From assembly GCA_017552715.1 (NCBI GenBank), contig JAFZOW010000094.1, positions 1 through 38,541 of the forward strand: 38,541 nucleotides of DNA, in the 5' to 3' direction. How positions within the stretch are numbered: position 1 is the stretch's first letter; every line of letters starts with the position of its first letter. The stretch is from Lachnospiraceae bacterium (GTDB lineage Bacteria > Bacillota > Clostridia > Lachnospirales > Lachnospiraceae). The notes below the pieces were generated by a model. That model saw only the letters and a list, made by a program, of their open reading frames with translations, did not search any database and had not been told where the DNA came from. A program made the translations under genes and the position numbers. Of this stretch, positions 7,604 through 28,984 are shown piece by piece.

Positions 7604-9145
7604 TTACTTCAGATCCAGGAAGAACTCCAGGAGCTTGTCCTCCAGGATGTAGTCACGGATCATATCTTCGCCGTAGGTTGCAATGAATTCGTCCGTCTTT
7701 CCTTCATAGCCGTTTTCCGATGCCACCTTTTCGATATCTTCCTGTGTGGCAGTGATGTTCTCGCGGGACGCGATGGCCTTGTAAAGAGTAGAATGCTCTA
7801 TAAAGGTAACGGAATCATTCATCAGCTGATCCTTAAAGGAAGCCAGATCCATACCAGTGCTCATGCCGATCAGGCTTTCCGCATCCATACCGTAGGAAAG
7901 GGAAGCGGCGTCTACCTGTTCCATGGTCTTGTTGTAGTAGTCGATCACGCTGTCCTCGTCGATATGGCTTACATAGGCATCTGCGTCGATGAAATTCCAG
8001 ATGGATGTGCTGCGTAGGCTTTTTGTTATAAAATCCTTATAGGCGGCTACGGTTGTGTATTCGCCGGAGGTCTTTTCCGATACCAGCGCATCCGTCAGTT
8101 CCGGAAGCTTGTTCCCGTGCAGGATGGAGTTTAAGGTGATGGCAAAGACCGCCGGTTTTCCGGCCAGCTCCGCAGCCTGATAGTCCTCGGGGAATACCAC
8201 ATGCACATCCTTTGTTTCCCCGATGCTCATGCCGACGATGCCCTCGGTAAAACCGTCGATAAAGGCGCTGATACCTATGGTGAGCTCGTAGTCGCTGGCT
8301 TCGCCGCCGTCAAAGGCAACACCGTCCATGGTGCCCAGGAAGTCGATGTTTACTGTATCGTACATCTCGGCTACCTGCCGGTCCGTCTGGACTTCCTCCA
8401 GGCTTCCGGAAAGGAGCTGGGAGTTGATGGCCTTTTCGATGGAGCTTTCACTCACACCGGTCTCGCTGAGGAAATAAGCGGTGTCGGTATAATTGCGGAC
8501 ATAGATCTCGATACCGTCTGCGGAAAGATCCAGCATTTTCCCTTCAGCCACGAGAGCCACATAATCCACAGCGCTGTTTTTGGTGGGCTGGGTCACGGGA
8601 GGAATGCCGACGAACAGGGCACTGTTGTCGATCTCCGTTGCAGCTGCGCTGTCACCGCTGACGGCGGTGATAACGGGATCGGCCGTATTCTCGGATAAAG
8701 CCTTGGACTGCTGGGCCTGCTTGATGACGATGGCTACAACGATGACGAGCAGCGCTACGCCGGCAAGAGCCAGTTCGATGATGATGGTGCGGCGCTTTGC
8801 GGCCAGATCTTCTTTATCGGACACGTCATTTTTGGCCTTTTCTCTGGAAGCTTTTTTCTGCTCCTTTTTTTCGTCATCATCGGATGCTTTTTCTTTATCC
8901 GTATCCTCTTCGGAGTCGGAAGTCTCTTCATCCTCCGCGCCTTCTTCGCTGTCGGGGCTTTCATCCTCATCCTGCGAGGCTTCATCTTTCGCAGTTTCGG
9001 GGCTTTCTTCTTCGGTGCTCTCTTCGTTCTCCGTGCTGTCCTCTTCTTCAGGGGTTTCTTCGGAGTCTTTCAGCTCCTTTTCATCCTTTGTGCTGTCTTC
9101 CGCCTTCAGGATCTCCTCTTTTTTTCTGTTCTTGTTCTTTTTCAT
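7604..9145 (-). CDS. Membrane-anchored FKBP-type prolyl isomerase, trigger-factor-like
   Basis: A 513-residue protein. Residues 1-118 are a strikingly acidic Glu/Asp/Ser tail. A transmembrane helix lies near 119-141, followed by an extracytoplasmic part with an FKBP fold near 255-345 (VNIDFLGTMDGVAFDGG, IDGFTEGIVGMSIGE and VVFPEDY motifs). A helical C-terminal domain (346-513) resembles the substrate-binding arm of trigger factor. Cytoplasmic trigger factor has no such membrane anchor, so this is probably a chaperone/isomerase for exported proteins. Not seen: the N-terminal ribosome-binding domain of true trigger factor. The start is supported by a perfect GGAGG site. It is divergent from the EAL gene and convergent with the SH3b gene, which has the same acidic-tail plus single-helix plan. 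Confidence 0.85.
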   Translation of the reverse strand: MKKNKNRKKEEILKAEDSTKDEKELKDSEETPEEEDSTENEESTEEESPETAKDEASQDEDESPDSEEGAEDEETSDSEEDTDKEKASDDDEKKEQKKASREKAKNDVSDKEDLAAKRRTIIIELALAGVALLVIVVAIVIKQAQQSKALSENTADPVITAVSGDSAAATEIDNSALFVGIPPVTQPTKNSAVDYVALVAEGKMLDLSADGIEIYVRNYTDTAYFLSETGVSESSIEKAINSQLLSGSLEEVQTDRQVAEMYDTVNIDFLGTMDGVAFDGGEASDYELTIGISAFIDGFTEGIVGMSIGETKDVHVVFPEDYQAAELAGKPAVFAITLNSILHGNKLPELTDALVSEKTSGEYTTVAAYKDFITKSLRSTSIWNFIDADAYVSHIDEDSVIDYYNKTMEQVDAASLSYGMDAESLIGMSTGMDLASFKDQLMNDSVTFIEHSTLYKAIASRENITATQEDIEKVASENGYEGKTDEFIATYGEDMIRDYILEDKLLEFFLDLK

Positions 9146-9175
9146 AATATACCTCCAAATTTACAGACATGTGGT

Positions 9176-9204
9176 ATTTTATCACTCGGCTGCCCCATGT
9201 GCAA
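9176..9204 (-). promoter_or_regulatory. Promoter of the FKBP-like gene
   Basis: Read on the minus strand: TTGCAC (9199-9204), a 17-bp spacer, and TAAAAT (9176-9181) with an extended TGA before the -10. Its -35 box is only 4 bp from the -35 box of the divergent EAL promoter. Confidence 0.75.
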
Positions 9205-9208
9205 GTGC

Positions 9209-9237
9209 TTGTATAAGTTGTAGAAATATGGTATTAT
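9209..9237 (+). promoter_or_regulatory. Promoter of the EAL-DHH-TIR operon
   Basis: TTGTAT at 9209-9214, a 17-bp spacer, and TATTAT at 9232-9237, followed by GGAGG and the start codon at 9260. A small inverted repeat (CAAG-TG-CTTG, 9202-9211) lies between the two divergent -35 boxes and could be a shared operator. Confidence 0.65.
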
Positions 9238-9259
9238 ACGATGGGTTTCGGAGGTTCTT

Positions 9260-12200
9260 ATGGCGGCACGAAAACGCATCGCTCTGCTGATGGCGCAGGC
9301 GGACGAAAACTATCAGGAAAAGTTCATCCGGGGTTTTCTGCGGCCGCTCTTCGCGGAAGATTTCGATGTCTGCATTTTTTCCATGTATATAAAATACCAG
9401 GATACCACCACCCGTGAGGTGGGGGAATCCAATATATATTCCCTTGTGAACTACAGCCTTTTCGATGCCGTAGTACTCCTTTCGGATACCATACAGACTC
9501 CGGGAGTGCTGCAGGCTCTGGAAGAGAAGATCCACGAATGCTATACGGGGCCGGTTCTGGTGGTGGATGCCCGAAGCACTTATTTCCCCAGCATCTGGAC
9601 CGACAGCTACACGCCCTTCCGCAGCCTTGTGGATCATCTGATCGAAGTACACGGCTATAAGGATATAGCTTTTTTAAGCGGGCGCAGATGGCATCCCCAT
9701 TCCAGACAGAGGCAGAAGGCCTATGAAGATGCACTGGCGGCCCATGGCATCCCTTTACGGGAAGAAAAGGTGTTTTACGGGGATTTCTGGTATACCAGCG
9801 GGAGCGGCTGCGCGGAAAACCTCTTGAGAGAGGGGAGCAGTCTGCCCGAGGTTGTGATCTGTGCCAATGACCAGATGGCCATCGGCCTTGCAAGAACCCT
9901 GGAAGAGAACGGGGTTAATATACCGGAAGATATCGCGGTAGTTGGTTTTGACAGTATCGAGGAGGGACGTACCAGTCCCTGTCCCATCAGCAGTGCCTAT
10001 ATACCGGCCGCATCCACCGGCCAGCACGCTGCGCATTCGATCCTGCAGCTTATGCGGGGGGAGGAGATCAGTGATCCGGATACGACGGTGGAGCTTTTTA
10101 TCGGAGGCAGCTGCGGCTGTGATGCGGAAAAAGTCCGTTACCGCGATATACTGCGCAAGAGCTGGGCTTCCGGACAGTCCGACGGGACCTATCTTTCCCT
10201 GCATAACAAGATGCAGGAGAATATCATGATACAGACCCGCCTTCACGGGGGGATCGACGTGATCTATGATAACCTGAGTCAGATAAAGGGATATAAAAGC
10301 TTTCATATCTGTCTCTGTGAACAGTGGGCCACACCGGCAGCCCTGTCCAGAGGCATGCTTTCCAGCCACGGTTATCCGGAGCATATGCTGCATGCCCTGG
10401 CATCATTCGGTGATGATCCCACCCGGGACGTGATCGATCTGCAGGACAGCTTTGATACGGTGGATCTGCTTCCAGATCTGCATAAGGAACGGGAAGAGCC
10501 TGCGGCCTATATCTTTACTCCGCTGCATTTTGAGGACAGCTGCTTCGGTTATGCCGTGGTGGATTACGGCAGCCGCATCCGCAGTTATGACGAAACCTAC
10601 CGTATGTGGATGCAGGGGCTGATGCGCGCCCTGGAGAGCCTGCGGCGTACCTGTATCGTGCAGGAGCGTCACGGGAATACCCTGCCGGATGTCAGCAGTG
10701 AAACGGATATCTCCTCCGAGGAGCTGCGTATGATGAAGGAGGTCGGATCCATATTGGATGAGAACCGGCTTCATTATTATTACCAGCCCATCGTGAGTGC
10801 CGTGGACGGAAGCATCTTTGCTTTTGAAGCCCTGATGCGGGCAAAGAGTGACATGAAGGTCTCGCCTTTGCAGATCATCAGTTTTGCCGCAAAACTCAAA
10901 CGTCTTGCGGATGTGGAAAAGGCAACCTTCCTGAATGTCCTGGAGCAGATGGAGACGGAAGGCGATGCTTTCGGGGAAGCCCATATCTTCATCAACAGCA
11001 TACCGGGTACCCGGCTGGATGAAATGGATTACCGGCGTATCGAAGAGATGCTGAAAAAACGCGGTTCCAAGGCGGTTGTGGAGCTTACGGAACAGACGGA
11101 ACTGGATGACAACGAACTGGCGGATATGAAGGACCGCTTTGCACGTATGGGGATAGATACGGCCGTTGATGATTACGGTACCGGATATTCCAATGTTTCC
11201 AATCTGCTCCGCTATATGCCCAATTACGTGAAGATAGACCGTTCCCTTTTATCCGGCATTCAGGACAGTCCCCAGAAGCAGCATTTCGTAAGGGAGATCA
11301 TCAACTTTTCCCACGACAACGGCATACAGGTGCTGGCGGAAGGAGTGGAGACCGGAGAGGAACTCCGAACGGTCATCATCCTGGGCTGTGACCTGATCCA
11401 GGGCTATTACACCGGACGTCCCGCTCCGGAGGTGATTCGCAGCATCGATGGTGCTATAATAGAAGAGATCTGCCGCTACCAGAAGGAAAGGCAGGACGGC
11501 GGCCTGCGCCGGGTGTTCGTCAGCGGCAAGACCAACCGTTTCTCCGCCACCGGCTTAAGCCGCGAAGGCTATACCGAGATCGAAAGCCGGCCCGGGGAGG
11601 GGACTTTCCGCGATTATACCTTGAGCGGGGCCCTGGGGCAGAAGGCAGACCTCAGGCTGGTGATATGCGAAGGCTACGAAGGGCAGATCACACTGGAACA
11701 TGTTCACCTCAACAGCCCCAAGCAGTTGCCGCTCATCGAGCTGAAGCCCGGAGCAAAGCTTACGCTGGTGCTGACCGGGGATAATATCTTAAGCGGCGGC
11801 GGTATCCACGTGCCCGTAGGAGCGGAACTGACCCTGCGGGGAGAAGGGGATCTGAACATCAAGCTCAATTCGGATGATTATTTCGGTATAGGCTGCTTAA
11901 GCGGAGCCGCAGGGAAACTGGAATTCTATCAGAACGGAGCTGTGAGCATAGAGGCCCGGGGGAACCGGGGCGTGGGCATCGGAGGCGAAACGGCAGCGAG
12001 TATCCTGATACACAGGGGGCGTTTCCTGCTCCAGCAGATCGGCGGCATTGCCGTGGGCATCGGCTGCATGGAAGGGGATGTGGAGCTGGATGTACACGAC
12101 TGCGAACTGGATATGACTTATACAGCCGGTGAGTGCTGCGGCCTGGGATCTTATGCGGGCTGCGCCGGGATCGATATGCGCAAGGTCTTCCTGCACTGCT

Positions 12201-12568
12201 TCGGCAGCGCGGATGCGCTGGTGGTGGCCGGCAGTATAAGAGGTGATAAAGCGGAAGTGCGCTATCATGAGATGGGCACGAATATCGATGTGAGAGCGGA
12301 ACAGGCCAGCGGAGCCGGAACTCTTAAGGGAGAGTCTTCGGTGATCCTGGATAATGTGTCTTACCGTTTCTCCGCAACAGGAAAAGAGGCTTATGCCTAC
12401 GGCGGCTGCAATAATGCCGGCGGGCTTATCGCGATGAACTCAAACATCTCGGTACGTATAAGGAACGAAAACGGGCGGATCGCCGCATGGCAGGACAATT
12501 ACATGAGTTACACCGACTGCCGCGGAGATCTTACATTGAACGGGAAAGTGTATAACGGGTTTGATTGA
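9260..12568 (+). CDS. LacI-type sensor + EAL c-di-GMP phosphodiesterase + Gly-rich beta tail
   Basis: A 1102-residue multidomain protein without signal peptide or membrane helix. Residues 1-290 are a periplasmic-binding-protein-like sensor as in LacI/GalR regulators (DAVVLLSD, VVICANDQMAIGLARTLEENG, DIAVVGFDS), but with no DNA-binding domain. Residues 295-480 are a linking domain of unclear fold. Residues 490-740 are an EAL domain with the catalytic set intact: E523-A-L, N579, D637-D638 in DDYGTG, K658 and E694 in EGVET. It should therefore hydrolyse cyclic di-GMP to pGpG. Residues 750-1102 are rich in Gly, Asp and short beta strands with repeated G-I-G patterns (FGIGCLSG, GVGIGGE, AVGIGCMEG, CGLGSYAG), suggesting a parallel beta-helix or carbohydrate-binding-like module, which is unusual on a cytoplasmic enzyme. 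The next gene starts 2 bp after the stop. Confidence 0.85.
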   Translation: MAARKRIALLMAQADENYQEKFIRGFLRPLFAEDFDVCIFSMYIKYQDTTTREVGESNIYSLVNYSLFDAVVLLSDTIQTPGVLQALEEKIHECYTGPVLVVDARSTYFPSIWTDSYTPFRSLVDHLIEVHGYKDIAFLSGRRWHPHSRQRQKAYEDALAAHGIPLREEKVFYGDFWYTSGSGCAENLLREGSSLPEVVICANDQMAIGLARTLEENGVNIPEDIAVVGFDSIEEGRTSPCPISSAYIPAASTGQHAAHSILQLMRGEEISDPDTTVELFIGGSCGCDAEKVRYRDILRKSWASGQSDGTYLSLHNKMQENIMIQTRLHGGIDVIYDNLSQIKGYKSFHICLCEQWATPAALSRGMLSSHGYPEHMLHALASFGDDPTRDVIDLQDSFDTVDLLPDLHKEREEPAAYIFTPLHFEDSCFGYAVVDYGSRIRSYDETYRMWMQGLMRALESLRRTCIVQERHGNTLPDVSSETDISSEELRMMKEVGSILDENRLHYYYQPIVSAVDGSIFAFEALMRAKSDMKVSPLQIISFAAKLKRLADVEKATFLNVLEQMETEGDAFGEAHIFINSIPGTRLDEMDYRRIEEMLKKRGSKAVVELTEQTELDDNELADMKDRFARMGIDTAVDDYGTGYSNVSNLLRYMPNYVKIDRSLLSGIQDSPQKQHFVREIINFSHDNGIQVLAEGVETGEELRTVIILGCDLIQGYYTGRPAPEVIRSIDGAIIEEICRYQKERQDGGLRRVFVSGKTNRFSATGLSREGYTEIESRPGEGTFRDYTLSGALGQKADLRLVICEGYEGQITLEHVHLNSPKQLPLIELKPGAKLTLVLTGDNILSGGGIHVPVGAELTLRGEGDLNIKLNSDDYFGIGCLSGAAGKLEFYQNGAVSIEARGNRGVGIGGETAASILIHRGRFLLQQIGGIAVGIGCMEGDVELDVHDCELDMTYTAGECCGLGSYAGCAGIDMRKVFLHCFGSADALVVAGSIRGDKAEVRYHEMGTNIDVRAEQASGAGTLKGESSVILDNVSYRFSATGKEAYAYGGCNNAGGLIAMNSNISVRIRNENGRIAAWQDNYMSYTDCRGDLTLNGKVYNGFD

Positions 12569-12570
12569 TT

Positions 12571-14082
12571 ATGAGTATTAAATTATCCAGACTTCTTGCA
12601 TTCAATAACATAGTGATCCAGTGCCATGACAATCCCGATGCGGATGCCCTGGCCAGCGGCTTTGCGCTGTGGCGCTACCTGGCGGGACAAGGGGTAAGGG
12701 CGCGCCTGGTATACGGCGGCCGGGCACTGCTCACCAAGTGCAATCTCCTGAGCATGGTGGAGCGGCTCGAGATCCCCGTGGAATATGTAACGGAGCTGGC
12801 ACCTCCCGAGCTTTTGCTTACCGTGGACTGTCAGTACGGGGAAAGCAATGTGACCCACTTTGAGGCGGAGCATATTGCGGTGATCGACCATCACCAGCTG
12901 TCCACCACGCTCCCGGCGCTTTCCGAACTGCGCAGCAATTACGGTTCCTGCTCCAGCGTGATCTTTAAGCTTCTGGAGAACGAGGGCTTCGAGATCAATG
13001 ATGATCCGGATGTGGCGACGGCTCTGTTTTACGGTCTTTATACGGATACCGGCGGGCTTGCCGAGATCTCCCATCCGGCGGACCGGGATCTTCGGGATCA
13101 TGCAAGATACAGCAAAGAAGACATACTGTATTTCCGCAATTCCAATCTTTCCAGAGAAGAACTGGCCATCGCGGGAGAAGCACTGGAGAATGCCATTTAT
13201 GAGGAAGGCTTCCCCTATGCCATGATCGAGTCGAAACCCTGCGATCCCAATCTCCTGGGGGTGATCAGTGATATGCTGCTGGAAGTGGAAGGTCTGGAAA
13301 GCTGCCTGGTATACAGCATCCTTCCCTTCGGGGTCAAGCTCTCGGTCCGCAGCTGCAGCAAGGATGTAAAGGCCAATGAACTGGCGGATTTCCTGACGGA
13401 AGGTCTGGGGGGCGGCGGAGGCCATACCACCAAGGCCGGAGGCATCCTGAAAAAGGATCTTTTTGCCATGCGGGGAAGGACCTTCTCTCCCGGAGCCATA
13501 CGCGAATTCCTCCGGGGGCGTATGCACCGTTATTATTCGGAAAGCATCATACGCTATGCCGGTGTGGAAGACGAAGACATCACAGGCTTTAAGCATTATA
13601 TGAAGAAAGATGTCAAGCAGGGATATGTAGAGGCCAGGTATCTTTCGGAGTACGGCAAGAAAGTACTGATCCGTACCCTGGAGGGAGATGTTGAAGTGGA
13701 AGTGGAGGATGATGTGCTGATCATTCTGGGGGTTGACGGCGAGATCTATCCCTGCCGCAGGGAAAAGTTTGAACGTTCCTATAAGACCAGTGATGATCCC
13801 TATATCTATCCCGGCGAGTATGTACCTGCCGTGATCAATACCGAGACCGGTGAGAGGATCGAACTTCTTCCTTATGCAAAGAGTTGTGTGGCTCTGGGAG
13901 GCAGCTGGATCTATGCCAAGGAACTGGATCACAGACTGAAGCTTTTCACCACCTGGGATACGGACAGCTACTACCTGGGGGTTAAGGGAGATTATCTTGC
14001 CGTGCGACCGGATGATCACAAGGATATCTATATCATCGCCCGGCGGATCTTTGATAAGACCTACGAGGAAGTGGAGGGATGA
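12571..14082 (+). CDS. DHH/DHHA1 phosphoesterase (NrnA-like) with C-terminal extension
   Basis: A 503-residue protein from the ATG at 12571. A TTG at 12565, overlapping the previous stop, would add two residues. The DHH domain has its metal-binding motifs: HDNPDADA near residues 19-26, the VDCQYG aspartate near 86, IDHHQ near 106 and YTDTGG near 157. The DHHA1 substrate domain shows GGGGGHTTKAGG near 280-291. NrnA/GdpP-type enzymes of this class cleave pAp, nanoRNA or linear dinucleotides such as pGpG and pApA. Typical NrnA ends near 310-340; here about 165 further residues follow, containing PGEYVPAV and KGDYLAVRPDD motifs that I could not assign. Sitting just after an EAL gene, its natural substrate could be the pGpG made by that enzyme; this is inference. 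Its stop overlaps the next start (ATGA). Confidence 0.85.
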   Translation: MSIKLSRLLAFNNIVIQCHDNPDADALASGFALWRYLAGQGVRARLVYGGRALLTKCNLLSMVERLEIPVEYVTELAPPELLLTVDCQYGESNVTHFEAEHIAVIDHHQLSTTLPALSELRSNYGSCSSVIFKLLENEGFEINDDPDVATALFYGLYTDTGGLAEISHPADRDLRDHARYSKEDILYFRNSNLSREELAIAGEALENAIYEEGFPYAMIESKPCDPNLLGVISDMLLEVEGLESCLVYSILPFGVKLSVRSCSKDVKANELADFLTEGLGGGGGHTTKAGGILKKDLFAMRGRTFSPGAIREFLRGRMHRYYSESIIRYAGVEDEDITGFKHYMKKDVKQGYVEARYLSEYGKKVLIRTLEGDVEVEVEDDVLIILGVDGEIYPCRREKFERSYKTSDDPYIYPGEYVPAVINTETGERIELLPYAKSCVALGGSWIYAKELDHRLKLFTTWDTDSYYLGVKGDYLAVRPDDHKDIYIIARRIFDKTYEEVEG

Positions 14083-17000
14083 GATACAACGCTTTTATCA
14101 GCTACCGTCATGCAGAACTGGATATGGAAGTGGCTAAGAAGCTGCACAAGGGCCTTGAGACCTTTGCCATTCCGGAGGCGGTGCGGAAAAAGTACGGTAA
14201 GAAGCGTATCGAGAGGGTCTTCCGTGATCAGGAAGAGCTGCCCATCGGCAGTGATCTGGATGACAACATCACGGAAGCACTGAAGGAATCGGAGTATCTT
14301 ATCGTTGTTTGTTCTCCCCGGACACCGGAATCCGAATGGGTCGGCAGGGAGATAGACAGCTTTATAAGTTTTCACGACCGGGATCATGTGCTGGCCGTAC
14401 TGATAGAGGGAGAGCCGGAGGAGAGCTTCCCGAAACAGCTGATCCTGGATGAAGAGGGAAATGATGTAGAACCCCTGGCAGCGGATGTGCGGGGGGCGGA
14501 CCGTAAAGAGCGGAATAAGAAATTCAAGACGGAACTGGTACGCCTGGCAGCTCCCCTGATCGGCTGCGATTATGATGAGCTTCGCCAGAGAAGACGTGAG
14601 CGCATGATAAGGCGCTATGTCACGGCGGGGGCAAGCGTTGCGCTGGCTGCGGCTGTTCTGGGTATCAGTTTTGGTATATATAATGCGCGGGTGGCTCAGC
14701 GTATGATGGATCTGGCAAACGAAAAGGCCACCCTTGCAGCTACCAGTGCACAGCTGGCTCTGGAAAAGACCCAGCTGGCAACAGATGTCTATGATCAGTA
14801 TCTGGATACTCTTAAGAACCAATCCCGATTCTATGCCGAAAAATCCCTGTCCCTTCTGAATGAGGGAAAACGCAAAACGGCAGCCTTGATCGCCATGGCC
14901 GCACTGCCTACGGAAAAGGATGAGCGTCCCTATGTTCCGGAAGCTGAATACGCCCTGAGTCAGGCTCTGCATGTATATGACGACGGAAGTCAGCTGGATT
15001 TCGACCTTCTTCTTCATCATGAACAGATCGTGGATACCATGCAGTTTTCGGGAAGCGGAGAGTATTTTCTGAGCCTGGATCGCGGGGAAAATGTTTATGT
15101 CTGGGAGCCGGAAAGCTGGGAACGTATCGTGATGATCCCCTTCAGGATCAACTCGGACCTGGGGATGGATGATGTGGTCGGGATGGAAGCGGACGATGAA
15201 CATGTCTATGTGGTTACGGAGGAAACATTAGGCATCTATGATCATGAGGCAAAGCTGCTTGTGTCCGTACCGGCAGATCTTTATTATATAGGAGCTTTTT
15301 TTGATGTGACCGAAGGAGTGGCTTTTCTGGTGGAAACCGACTATGTGCGTTGTGTGGAGCTTTCTTCCGGAGAAGTGATATACGAAGTGGAGACAGATTC
15401 GGATAATTCATTTTTATCCAAAGGCGCGGTGCTTGGCGGGGGGCGTTGTGCCGTCTGCCGCTGGGCGGATGAAGATGAGAACTCCATTGTTTGCATAATC
15501 GATGCCAGAGAGGGAAGTAAGAAGGAGATCCCAAGCTCCTGTCCCACGATCCTTCGTATCGCGCCTTCCAAAGACGGCCATTTTGCCCTGATCGGCTGTA
15601 ATTCCGATTATTATATGGGAGGAGTCGGTGTTCAGAAGATGGTCCTGGAATGGATAGACCCTGATGAAGGGGTGATGTGGACCGAAAAACCGAAGATCAC
15701 GGTGAACGATTCCCTGGGCTTTATGGCTTTATTGAAGATACAGGAATATACGGATCAGGAGACGGAAAAGAAACAGATCGTACTGGCGCTGGAAAAAGGC
15801 GTATACGTGTGGGATACAGAGGGAAAAGAAATATCCCGGATCGTCCTGCCGGAAGTGGCTGTGTCTTTATTGCTCTCCCAGACAAGCTCCCGGGGGATGG
15901 TCGCGTACTCAAACGGCGTCATAGACTGGATCGAAACGGAGAGCGGAAGCCTTTGGGACCAGTACCGTATAGAAAGCGGACTGCCTCTCAGAGGATTATG
16001 CTCCTATGACCAGCAGCGCCTGATCCGGAGTGATAAACGTACCGATATATATCTGCTTTCCTATCATAAGGGGATAGGACTGGAGGAGCTGCCCGAGCTG
16101 GCGGAAACACAGATCTCGGCAGGGGTGGAGCCGGAAGGCCGTTATTATGTGACCAAGAGCCTTCATGACAGACTGAAGCTCTGTTTTTATGATCCGGATG
16201 GGAAGCTGCTTTATGTTTTTGACCAAAGTGAAAAGTATTCAAACGGACTTACTTTTCTGGACGGTCTTACGATCCTCGCCACAACGGAGGGGCTCTGGTA
16301 TATCGATCCCCTGAAGCAGAGTGCGGAGCTTAAGAATATTGATGCCTTCGGATCAGACAAGATCTATACGCGCTGCTGCTTCAGTGTGAACGGAAAATAC
16401 TGCTGTATGTGGAACGGCTACTGGCTTGCTGCTATCGATGCGGAGAATAAAAAGCTTCTGTATGAGGAAGTTAGCGAGATCCCCGTGGGCAATGTGGTGA
16501 TGACGAATGACGGGAGCAAACTGCTGATCTCGCTGGAGAATACGCCGCTCATCACCATGGATCTTGCCAGCGGGTAGAAGAAAAGCTTTAACGATGAGGA
16601 TCTTTATGCCGTTTCCGACAACTCCGATTATCAATACCTTTGCGTGAGCTCTTCGGGGAAGCTGGCGGCCATGTTCTGTTCGGACGGAAAGGTAAGGATC
16701 GTAGACACTGAAAGCCTGAACGTGACTGCCGTGATCCATCAGCAGTCCAGATTGTTCGGTTTTATCAGCTTTACTCCGGATGATAAGAACCTGGTGATGC
16801 AGGGGGATGACCACAGCATTCAGATCTGGGATATACGTCTGGGAAAATACCGGAACCGTATCGACGGCACATCGGAACTGCATTTTGTCCTGTCGGACAG
16901 AGAAGACGGCTTTTACCTTTGTGTGGACGAGTACGGGATCAATCTGTTTGAAGCGGAAAGCTTTGCGCGTATCGCATATATCCCCGACGGCATGGCCTTT

Positions 17001-17153
17001 TTTGCCAAAGACAATTCCTTTATCCAGCGGGATGTGAGAACTGTATACCGCTCACATTACATGGATTACCGTGAGCTGATCGAGGAAGCGAAGCGCCAGT
17101 TCCCCGATGCTTTCCTTAGCGAAGCGGAGAAGAGGGAATACAATATAGAGTGA
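14079..17153 (+). CDS. TIR + transmembrane + WD40-like beta-propeller protein, interrupted by in-frame TAG
   Basis: The reading frame runs 1024 codons if the TAG at 16575-16577 (codon 833) is read through; otherwise it yields 832 residues. Residues 1-150 are a TIR domain: FISYRH (6-11), RDQEELPIGSDL (49-60) and WVGRE with the candidate NADase glutamate E91. A basic stretch (RQRRRERMIRR) precedes a transmembrane helix at 180-202, then a coiled-coil-like helix to about 270. From about 300 onward come repeated beta-propeller blades (VYVWEPESW, VYVWDTEG and, after the TAG, IQIWDIRLGKY). The basic residues suggest TIR inside and propeller outside. The post-TAG 191 codons keep the same frame and fold pattern and include the last blades. 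No ribosome site supports separate translation of the C-terminal part. Bacterial TIR domains commonly cleave NAD+; activity here is inferred from E91. It overlaps the DHH gene by 4 bp. Confidence 0.82.
16575..16577 (+). other. In-frame amber (TAG) codon inside the TIR-propeller gene
   Basis: Upstream residues ...TMDLASG and downstream residues KKSFNDEDLYAVSD... read continuously in one frame with no frameshift. The downstream frame stays open for 191 codons and ends with TGA. The next plausible starts downstream (GTG 16644, ATG 16671) have no Shine-Dalgarno sequence. Confidence 0.9.
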
Positions 17154-17161
17154 CATAAAAC

Positions 17162-17189
17162 TTGACAATTATTACAGTGGTGATATAAT
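17162..17189 (+). promoter_or_regulatory. Promoter of the lipoprotein gene
   Basis: TTGACA at 17162-17167, a 16-bp spacer, and TATAAT at 17184-17189 with an extended TG motif (TGATATAAT). It is near consensus, so strong expression is expected. Confidence 0.88.
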
Positions 17190-17251
17190 ACCCGTGTTTC
17201 ATGATGATGAAAGCCTGAAAGAGGCGAACAGAAAAAAGGGAGAAGAAAATT

Positions 17252-18031
17252 ATGAAAAAGAGAGTACTTGCAATGCTGATCTCCGCAGTGCTGAGCGTAG
17301 GAATGCTCTGCGCATGCGGCGGTTCCGAGGCTGCCCCGGAGACCACCAAGACTGAGGAGAAGAAGGAAGAAAAGAAAGAAGAGACCAAGACCGAGACAAA
17401 GGACGAGGGTGGCATCACCTTCGCCGATCTTCAGGAGAACTACAAGACCCTGAAGGAGACCTATGATTCTGTGGAAGAGCTGTACATGAATGATGCGATC
17501 CAGGGTGATGAGAACATCACTGAGCTGCTTTCCCAGTGCAAGGAAGTCATTGATGAGATGGGTGAGCTGACCGAGGCTGATTTCGGCAATCAGCAGGATA
17601 TGGTCGACATGAACAACACCATGGTGAGCCTGCTGGGTTCCCTGGGGCAGATCGTTGATGCTATGCAGGTTGCTGAGCCCGCTGAGCCCGAGTCCGATCC
17701 TGAAGAGACCGATATGCAGTATGTTGACGGTTACTATGCAAATGACGGCACCACCGAGTTCATTATCACATTCTTCAGCGGCAGCGACGGAGATTTCGCT
17801 TATGTTTACGACGGCGAGGCTGAGGCTTTTGCTGAGTACACCGTAGAGAGCGTTTCCTCCACTTCTTCCGATTTCGAAGATTACCTGCTGGTTACCGTAG
17901 GTGCTCTGGAGCTGGGCTACTACATCGATGATGACGGCGATGTATGGATCACCGACGGTGAGACCCTGTATGCTGCTGCTCAGCTTTCCGAGAGCGAAGC
18001 TGACGAGATCATGGAGAGCATGATGGAGTAA
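17252..18031 (+). CDS. Secreted lipoprotein, function unknown
   Basis: A 259-residue protein with a lipoprotein signal: MKKR, a hydrophobic core, then LCAC with the lipidated Cys near residue 22. A Lys/Glu/Thr-rich linker (about 28-52) gives reach through the wall. A helical region follows (about 55-130, acidic, possible coiled coil), then a small beta-rich domain (about 145-245: YYANDGTTEFIITFF, YVYDGEAEAFAEY, YYIDDDGDVWITDG). It is very acidic overall. Codon choice (GCTGAG, CTGCTG) is more uniform than in its neighbours and fits the near-consensus promoter and high expression. It is monocistronic with its own terminator. The family was not recognised; a ligand-binding or surface structural role is possible. 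Confidence 0.85.
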   Translation: MKKRVLAMLISAVLSVGMLCACGGSEAAPETTKTEEKKEEKKEETKTETKDEGGITFADLQENYKTLKETYDSVEELYMNDAIQGDENITELLSQCKEVIDEMGELTEADFGNQQDMVDMNNTMVSLLGSLGQIVDAMQVAEPAEPESDPEETDMQYVDGYYANDGTTEFIITFFSGSDGDFAYVYDGEAEAFAEYTVESVSSTSSDFEDYLLVTVGALELGYYIDDDGDVWITDGETLYAAAQLSESEADEIMESMME

Positions 18032-26740: not shown

Positions 26741-28984
26741 ATGCAGGGAAATGAACGTATACTGAAAAGCGAATACTCCGAGGTAATGCAGAAGAACTAT
26801 ATCGATTACGCCATGAGCGTGATCGTGAGCCGTGCCCTGCCGGATGTGCGGGACGGCTTAAAGCCCGTGCAGCGGCGTGTGCTCTATGATATGTATGAAC
26901 TGGGAGTGCGTTACGACAGGCCTCACCGTAAGAGTGCACGTATCGTGGGTGATACCATGGGTAAGTATCATCCCCACGGTGATTCTTCCATATATGAAGC
27001 ACTGGTGGTGATGAGCCAGGATTTTAAGAAGGGCATCCCCCTGATCGACGGTCATGGGAACTTCGGCAATATCGAAGGAGACGGCGCGGCTGCCATGCGT
27101 TACACCGAGGCACGCCTGGCCCGCATCTCCCAGGAGGGCTTGCTGGCAGACCTGGATAAGGATGTTGTGGACTTTATGCCCAACTTCGACGAAACGGAAA
27201 AGGAGCCTACGGTACTCCCGGCCCGTTTCCCCAATCTGCTGGTGAACGGCAGCGAAGGTATCGCCGTAGGTATGGCCACCAAGATCCCGCCCCACAATAC
27301 GGGAGAGGTGATCGACGCCGCCATCGCATATATAAAGGATGAAAATATCACGACCGAAGGCCTGATGAGGTATGTGAAGGGCCCGGATTTCCCTACGGGG
27401 GGTATCGTGATCAATAAAGACGAACTGACGGAGATCTATGCCACGGGCAGCGGCAAGGTGCGTATCCGCGGTAAGGTGGAGGTGGAGCAGGCCAAGGGCG
27501 GCCATGTGCTGCTGGTGATCAGCGAGATCCCCTTTACCATGGTGGGACAGGGCATCTCCAAATTCTTAAGTGATGTGGCTGCTTTGGCGGAAAGCCGCAA
27601 GACCACGGATGTGGTGGATATCTCCAACCAGTCCTCCAAGGAAGGGATACGTATCGTCATTGAGCTTAAGAAGGATACGGATGTAGAGAACTTCAAGAAT
27701 ATGCTCTACAAGAAGACCCGCCTTGAGGATTCCTTCGGCGTGAACATGCTGGCCATCGCCGACGGCCGTCCCGAGACCATGAGCCTGCGGGACATCATCA
27801 GGCATAATGTGGCCTTCCAGTTTGAGCTGAACCGCAGGAAGTATACCAATCTGCTGGCGAAGGAAAGGGAAAAGAAGGAAGTACAGGAGGGTCTCATCAA
27901 GGCCTGCAATGTCATCGATCTGATCATCGAGATCCTGCGGGGCAGTAAAGACAGGCCCCAGGCCAAGGCCTGCCTGGTGGAAGGCGTCACCGAGGGCATT
28001 AAGTTCAAGTCCAGGGAATCCGAGATCATGGCCGGTATGCTCCACTTTACCGAGAGGCAGGCGGATGCCATCCTGGAGCTGCGTCTCTACCGCCTCATCG
28101 GGCTGGAGATCGAAGCCCTGAACCGTGAATATGAGCAGACCACGGCGAACATCTACCGTTACGAGGATATACTGGACCGCCGGGAGAGCATGGCCAACGT
28201 GATCATCGAGGATCTGCAGGCCATGAAGAAGATCTATGCCCAGCCCCGGAAGACCCTGATCGAGAATGCGGAAGAAGCGGTTTATGAAGAGAAGAAGATG
28301 GAAGAGATGGATGTGATCTTCCTTATGGACCGCTTCGGCTACTGCAAGACCGTGGATCCCGCTACTCTGGAGCGCAACCGCGAAGCCATCGAGGCAGAGA
28401 ACGCCTGGATCGTGGAGTGCAAGAATACAGGAAAGCTCTGTGCCTTTGGGAATACGGGGAACCTCCATACCTTCCGTGTGGCGGATCTGCCCCACGGGCG
28501 TTTCCGCGATAAGGGCGTACCCCTGGATAACGTGAGCGGCTACGATTCCCAGTAGGAGGATATACTCTGTGTGCTGAATCAGGCCGAGATCCCCCTGCAG
28601 AGACTGGTCTTTGTGAGCCGGCAGGGCATGATCAAATTTGTAAGCGGGGATGAGTTCGATGTGGCCAAGCGTACCGTGGCTGCCACCAAGCTGGGAGAAG
28701 GAGATACGCTGGTTAAGGTGGCCCTTCTCTATGACGGCAGTTACCTGGCCCTTTTCTCTCATAAGGGCATGCTGCTTAAGATGGACGGGGAGGAGATCCC
28801 CCAGAAGAAGAAGGCGGCCGTGGGCGTGCGCGGCATGAAGCTGGACGGCGGGGATTATGTGGAGCTGGCGGAAGTTGGCAGCATCCATCAGGACAGGCAT
28901 CTGGTGGAGTTTAACGGGAAGCGTATCGACCTTTCGCTGATCCGCTCCCAGAAACGCGATGCGAAAGGTACAAGACTGAAATAA
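26741..28984 (+). CDS. parC: Type IIA DNA topoisomerase subunit A (ParC/GyrA), interrupted by in-frame TAG
   Basis: DNA cleavage-rejoining subunit. With the TAG at 28553-28555 (codon 605) read through, the product is 747 residues, close to the usual family length; otherwise 604. The breakage-reunion core is complete: YAMSVIVSRALPDVRDGLKP (23-42), GDSSIYEALVVM (80-91, the region where quinolone resistance maps), and the catalytic tyrosine Y121 in MRYTEARLA. Coiled-coil and tower segments run to about 490. The C-terminal beta-pinwheel starts near 510 and continues past the TAG (RLVFVSRQGMIKFV, LALFSHKGMLLKM, KAAVGVRGMKL). No QRRGGKG-type GyrA box was found, favouring a topoisomerase IV-like role. 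AGGAGG overlaps the TAG, with a GTG 11 nt further, so split translation is possible. Confidence 0.85.
28553..28555 (+). other. In-frame amber (TAG) codon inside the topoisomerase A gene
   Basis: ...NVSGYDSQ is followed by TAG and then EDILCVLNQAEIPLQ... in the same frame. The remaining 142 codons encode the last pinwheel blades and end with TAA at 28984. The interruption falls in a predicted surface loop between blades. AGGAGG at 28554-28559 overlaps the TAG, and a GTG is at 28571. Confidence 0.92.

Follow-up and report, generated by a model that had tools for sequence, protein, structure and literature searches.

TIR enzymes have been studied mainly in defence systems in which they have an effector partner. 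In Thoeris, a two-gene unit, the TIR protein ThsB is expected to use NAD+, and the available parts of the sources give its partner, ThsA, as a SIR2-SLOG or macro effector. Some DHH-DHHA1 enzymes remove immune nucleotide signals, namely the second messenger of type III CRISPR systems and signals countered by jumbo phages (PMC7824862 and its references). Here we describe a locus in which a TIR gene directly follows a DHH gene. It lies in a 38,541-nucleotide stretch of DNA from a Lachnospiraceae bacterium (assembly GCA_017552715.1, contig JAFZOW010000094.1, positions 1 to 38,541 of the forward strand), and we call this whole stretch the window. The + strand encodes a DHH/DHHA1 phosphoesterase of 503 residues, of which about 190 form a C-terminal extension (12571..14082), followed by a TIR–hydrophobic span–beta-propeller protein of 832 residues up to an in-frame TAG (14079..16577). 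A first-pass annotation had proposed a three-gene operon that also included an upstream EAL phosphodiesterase gene. We found that the conserved unit is the DHH gene plus the TIR-propeller gene, not the trio.

The pair is a two-gene unit with a TIR protein expected to use NAD+, as in Thoeris, and the Pfam ThsB_TIR model matches above its cut-off (35.0 versus 21.2 bits). However, the partner here is a DHH phosphoesterase, the TIR protein is membrane-anchored and carries a propeller, and no defence-island context was seen. The NCBIfam Thoeris III model (ThcB4) scored 15.7 bits where 220 are required, no PADLOC model named Thoeris matched the TIR protein at E ≤ 1, and no ThsA effector (SIR2-SLOG or macro) adjoins the pair in the window. 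A STALD search of the window's own genome gave 0 matches, and its controls likewise gave 0. The best PADLOC match of the TIR protein was SAVED_TIR (5e-9), which recalls the TIR-SAVED effectors of cyclic oligonucleotide-based antiphage signalling systems. However, this match spans the TIR part only, and the partner here should degrade nucleotides rather than make them. No CD-NTase was present among the window proteins or among the flank families listed.

The DHH protein shares DHH and DHHA1 motifs with NrnA, GdpP and TmPDE, but it differs from them in its additional C-terminal region of about 190 residues, part of which is related to phrog_419, and in its link to a TIR gene. It belongs to the same superfamily as the erasers of type III CRISPR and jumbo-phage signalling, which also remove messengers. 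Those erasers, however, act on cyclic oligonucleotide signals, and the accessible text names no TIR partner gene. TIR domains and beta-propellers also occur as parts of the conflict-system proteins of PMC7159879, but the MoxR-vWA or STAND partner described in the available part of that paper was not seen at the DHH-TIR pair. DHH is not mentioned in the accessible portions of PMC7159879 or PMC8195603. No description of a DHH-TIR pair was found in titles and abstracts, a coverage that largely leaves out subscription papers and preprints.

The association of the two genes was evident from their positions. A DHH family search of genome_contigs gave at least 476 relatives, of which 80 were kept, and with the loci of the window's relatives these made up 105 distinct loci. 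By title, the kept relatives were mostly from Lachnospiraceae, the rest being other Clostridia, Bacillota or bacteria. One locus with the pair, L072, comes from a Butyrivibrio isolate. A TIR-propeller open reading frame was present in 66 of the 105 loci, or in 66 of 95 once TIR-less loci with less than 3 kb on a side were excluded. It was within 225 bp of the DHH gene in 64 loci and at 594 bp (L136) and 983 bp (L068) in the other two. In a quick tree of 101 DHH proteins, the 63 rows with a TIR gene comprised 48 with DHH before TIR, 11 with TIR before DHH, 3 convergent pairs and 1 divergent pair. The tree requires a minimum of 18 changes in TIR adjacency and 6 in arrangement. Adjacency that persists through orientation changes is not expected from plain operon hitch-hiking. 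The DHH-TIR part of the proposed trio is conserved beyond the window, in four orientations, and its adjacency is strongly beyond chance. Tandem TIR-propeller copies occur in three loci (L161, 4731-10852; L162, 5000-11109; L152, 1-6701) and hint at sensor diversification.

We also counted the two genes in 294 genomes of the order, a sample that partly overlaps the 105 loci. DHH matches were counted when near full length; TIR matches had to include the TIR domain and reach 280 bits, and at most two TIR candidates were scored per genome. The long DHH gene was present in 58 genomes and the TIR-propeller gene in 45, with both in 33 (p = 3.0e-18). Partial DHH matches in five genomes were not counted (G120, G149, G150, G232 and G263), none of which had a TIR match at 280 bits. 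Adding four others (G294, G328, G256 and G045) as TIR-only genomes gave p = 2.3e-16. The association was also found with the sample thinned to 144 genera (DHH 23, TIR 20, both 14; p = 2.1e-9), among the 60 closest genomes (31, 28 and 26; p = 6.9e-10) and within the window's genus (27, 27 and 25 of 35 genomes; p = 4e-4). A phylum sample of 299 genomes had DHH in 6, TIR in 5 and both in 4, three of which were already in the order sample. The fourth, G520, has its two genes on different contigs and is the one genome with both outside the order, where DHH was present in 3 and TIR in 2. As a control, genomes whose DHH matches were all below 300 bits had the TIR gene in 1 of 28 cases, versus 33 of 58 for the long DHH. 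That single case, G255, has a diverged long DHH and had been counted as DHH-less in the order sample. The dependence was asymmetric: DHH was present in 29 of the 32 genomes with a close TIR match (500 bits or more), and TIR in 33 of the 58 DHH genomes. Where both genes were present, profile matches lay within 700 bp of each other in 20 of 33 genomes, of which 9 had a convergent pair, 8 had DHH before TIR and 3 had TIR before DHH; with the limit set at 3.5 kb, the number rose to 24. Thus adjacency and co-occurrence strongly support, at the genomic level, the earlier proposal that a TIR protein is coupled to a DHH enzyme acting on nucleotides.

The DHH protein retains the motifs of its superfamily. 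In an alignment of 59 of the 77 available proteins, with TIR-linked and TIR-less members mixed, H19, D25, D86, D106-H107-H108, D159 and G282-G283-G284-H285 were invariant (59/59). Two more distant members (L038 and L041) have GGGN instead of GGGH, with Asn for H285. Pfam DHH matched at 53.6 bits (cut-off 28.1; E = 3.4e-14), and DHHA1 reached 21.1 bits, below its cut-off of 25.9. The NCBIfam NrnA model gave 17.2 bits against a cut-off of 350, which places the protein outside the NrnA equivalog. Its solved relatives are exopolyphosphatase-like proteins, 3w5w, 4py9, TmPDE (5o1u), NrnA, Mn-pyrophosphatase and a c-di-AMP phosphodiesterase. The last 190 residues had no convincing Pfam match. Residues 350-426 of this extension (13618..13848, + strand) matched phrog_419 (3.7e-10), a phage family with no assigned function, and an internal repeat is weakly indicated (hhalign E = 0.0027, probability 11%). 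The name PGDYG was considered for this domain and dropped: Pfam listed no such match at E ≤ 10, and no paper was found. In two genomes of one genus, a HAD-type phosphatase is fused to the C terminus of the DHH protein (L168, 3449-5794, by Pfam HAD_2; L169, 4773-6995, by eye), as would be expected if DHH releases a phosphomonoester. At L042 (5270-8885), a protein kinase gene (Pfam) is followed by a gene whose product joins a kinase-like region to a DHH module without its catalytic motifs (by eye).

Catalytic TIR domains, which act as NADases or cyclases, have a conserved glutamate. In the TIR-propeller protein (TIR_2, 1.2e-10), the corresponding residue is E91, which aligns with the conserved glutamate of plant TIR domains. 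The first-pass annotation had pointed to this residue, and it held up: S85, W87 and E91, forming the S-x-W-x-x-x-E region, were invariant in 42 of 42 relatives (from 44 proteins) and in 29 of 29 in a second alignment. A predicted membrane span at residues ~181-201 (14619..14681, + strand) precedes a stretch of about 800 residues that resembles WD40-type propellers. A hydrophobic peak (19-residue mean of at least 1.58) was present in all 42 relatives. Lysine and arginine were more frequent before it than after it in 41 and equal in 1, a balance that places the propeller outside in 41 of 42. However, the median cysteine content of the propeller (1.64%) points to the inside, being higher than in exported proteins (0.93%, p = 2.5e-5) and no different from the value for span-less proteins (1.62%, p = 0.78). 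The window's own genome has a second, shorter TIR-propeller paralogue with no DHH neighbour (L043, 6914-9292).

The surroundings of the pair were unremarkable. Tested against PADLOC at 1e-10, 119 proteins flanking TIR-linked loci (120 drawn of 278, less one TIR fragment) included mad3 in 4 and other families once each, among the best 25 of 37 families. In 118 proteins flanking TIR-less DHH loci (120 drawn of 231, less a kinase and a near-duplicate), mad3 matched 7, mad8 6, AriA 3 and three more families 1 each. Among the best 25 of 164 flank families and the best 25 of 81 upstream families were tRNA synthetases, acetyltransferases, transporters and regulators. The flanks look like ordinary chromosome rather than defence islands. 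The defence-island neighbours that the first-pass annotation had suggested looking for did not emerge as an enrichment, with PADLOC matches scattered alike in both kinds of flank, and the neighbourhood gives no support to a role in defence. A viral or mobile origin was also considered and rejected. No relative was confirmed among 31 pattern matches in viral_contigs, and none of 25 plasmid records exceeded 80% coverage, leaving no full-length plasmid copy. Four phage records were found, two of them near full length and on unverified, unannotated virome scaffolds. Among ten neighbours scanned around TIR-less DHH genes, no recurrent partner family was seen. One DHH-less TIR-propeller gene (G306; L147, 4970-9784) is followed 6 bp downstream by a gene for nicotinate phosphoribosyltransferase, an NAD-salvage enzyme. 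This single gene order fits a link to NAD.

What might the pair do? From its sequence features and distribution, we tentatively favour, while stopping short of calling it probable, a chromosomal two-gene module, found mainly in Lachnospiraceae, in which a TIR protein, anchored in the membrane and sensing through its propeller, depends on a DHH eraser. Once the propeller is triggered, the TIR domain would turn NAD+ into a nucleotide. Hydrolysis of this nucleotide, or of whatever it becomes, would fall to the DHH enzyme, possibly under the control of the C-terminal domain of that enzyme. DHH would then be the off-switch, without which the TIR gene would rarely be kept. Removal of the TIR product by DHH would explain why TIR is seldom kept without DHH, while DHH is kept without TIR. 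A broader version seems doubtful to us, although it deserves mention: a chromosomal TIR pathway that works like a receptor, serves purposes other than phage defence and is spread through gut and rumen Clostridia. In it, a transmembrane TIR enzyme would write a messenger derived from NAD, and the dedicated DHH eraser of that messenger would carry a phage-related sensing domain. If true, bacteria would have their own equivalent of a Toll-like receptor, complete with an off-switch. In either case, a conserved TIR partner predicted to destroy nucleotides, on the ordinary chromosome of gut and rumen bacteria, raises two testable questions: what the TIR domain makes, and whether DHH removes it. The DHH enzyme is a handle for finding that product.

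Several observations weigh against the two-gene signalling module. No separate effector that reads a TIR signal was found. DHH had no TIR match in 25 of its 58 genomes and so has a role of its own in TIR-less genomes. Conversely, homologous TIR genes do occur without a DHH partner, a kind of finding that the first-pass annotation had named as grounds for doubt. They do so in 12 of 45 genomes (9 of them with matches below 500 bits, and one being G255) and in the paralogue of the window's own genome, yet the TIR gene mostly accompanies DHH (33 of 45). Of the 33 genomes that carry both genes, 9 do not have them within 3.5 kb of each other. Kinship among the genomes was handled by thinning to genera, not by a species tree. 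The side of the membrane on which the propeller lies is ambiguous because the charge balance and the cysteine content conflict. Finally, the TIR frame of the window itself is interrupted.

The genes can be read in other ways, and the same evidence bears on each. DHH might itself be the effector, with a TIR-made nucleotide binding its C-terminal domain and switching on degradation of short RNA or of a dinucleotide pool. This would account equally for the need of TIR for DHH, and it suits a C-terminal extension that is conserved in the family. It also suits the DHH genes without the extension (G150, G263 and G232, where the match ends at ~320), which lie in genomes without TIR at 280 bits, and the fusion at L042, which suggests that the module can be a non-enzymatic sensor. 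However, the 25 DHH genomes without a TIR match would have no such activator, and the catalytic motifs show no variation across TIR-linked and TIR-less members aligned together, so we regard an effector DHH as rather unlikely. Somewhat less credible is a toxin-antitoxin-like pair, in which TIR depletes NAD+ upon stress or phage attack and DHH restrains it by contact or clears a toxic product. The lopsided dependence (29 of 32 versus 33 of 58), the linkage maintained in four arrangements and the invariant TIR glutamate would all be in keeping with it. The PADLOC matches, however, are generic and scattered in both types of flank, the viral contigs held no confirmed relative and the plasmids no full-length copy, and in some genomes the two genes are far apart. 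Animal TIR domains act as non-enzymatic adaptors, and many residues of the TIR domain beyond its active site are invariant, so TIR could instead bring DHH to a membrane receptor complex. The invariance of E91, W87 and S85, with E91 aligned to the catalytic glutamate of plant TIR domains, makes such an adaptor improbable.

The remaining explanation is the three-gene circuit of the first-pass annotation, in which the EAL enzyme turns cyclic di-GMP (c-di-GMP) into pGpG, DHH clears pGpG and this nucleotide controls TIR. The sensor-EAL gene (9260..12568, + strand) has Peripla_BP_3/_1 and EAL matches (Pfam; EAL, 2.9e-51) and encodes a LacI-type sensor, an EAL phosphodiesterase and a C-terminal region without a Pfam match. 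The gene positions and the layout for translational coupling were confirmed: the DHH ATG (12571) is 2 bp past the EAL stop, and the TIR ATG (14079) overlaps the DHH stop as ATGA. This gene order and coupling speak for the circuit, and an EAL gene directly adjoins DHH or the DHH-TIR unit in 4 of the 105 loci (8 EAL open reading frames were found, in 7 loci). A slight excess over chance is possible, with about 4 in 210 neighbour places versus about 1 expected from 18 EAL-region matches in ~3000 genes, where the gene number is an estimate. EAL adjacency is at most weakly beyond chance, and any link to the unit would be a loose one. Elsewhere in the window's genome, the sensor-EAL protein has 23 more matches, and 17 of these cover the EAL part. 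However, the order EAL, DHH, TIR occurs only in the window (1 of 105 loci), and of 53 close upstream genes (same strand, less than 150 bp away, complete and at least 90 residues, from 100 loci with an upstream gene), 2 were EAL genes. Of the three adjoining cases besides the window, L096 (12631-14739) has the EAL gene on the opposite strand and pointing towards the TIR gene, L144 (5356-8004) has it upstream of a DHH gene with no TIR, and L057 (7583-10294) has it divergent with no TIR seen. Therefore, the three-gene unit is not conserved, and the proposed conversion of c-di-GMP into pGpG as part of the circuit has little support. We rejected EAL as a third component and consider the circuit very improbable. 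The EAL gene most probably lies beside the conserved pair by chance and is not part of it.

The first-pass annotation had also taken the TIR frame to be open to 17153. Instead, codon 833 is an in-frame TAG (16575..16577, + strand), after which the propeller continues for 191 codons in the same frame (16578..17153). Intact relatives exist (L045, 1023 residues; L047 and L048, 1011 residues), and the continuation is 41-48% identical to their C-terminal parts. Among the relatives there was one further nonsense codon (L145) and one frameshift (L078), whereas L084 has nothing more than a run of unknown bases. Elsewhere in the window, a gene that by eye resembles topoisomerase IV/gyrase A (26741-28984) also has one in-frame TAG (28553-28555) with an intact same-frame continuation. 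TAG as a sense codon in this organism was rejected. In 382 kb of its own genome (the window and 20 other stretches), long same-frame continuations followed the stop in 5 of 34 genes ending in TAG, 14 of 83 ending in TAA and 10 of 132 ending in TGA, with no excess for TAG. The two in-frame TAG codons of the window are possibly sequence errors or real lesions.

A single promoter for the three genes was not borne out either, since a scan of 8900-17400 listed no sigma-70-like + strand site just before 9260. By this consensus scan, the best promoter-like site of the region (17162-17189) is ahead of the next gene. Other neighbours of the unit in the window encode an FKBP-type protein (Pfam) and a lipoprotein-like protein (named by eye, with weak Pfam matches only).

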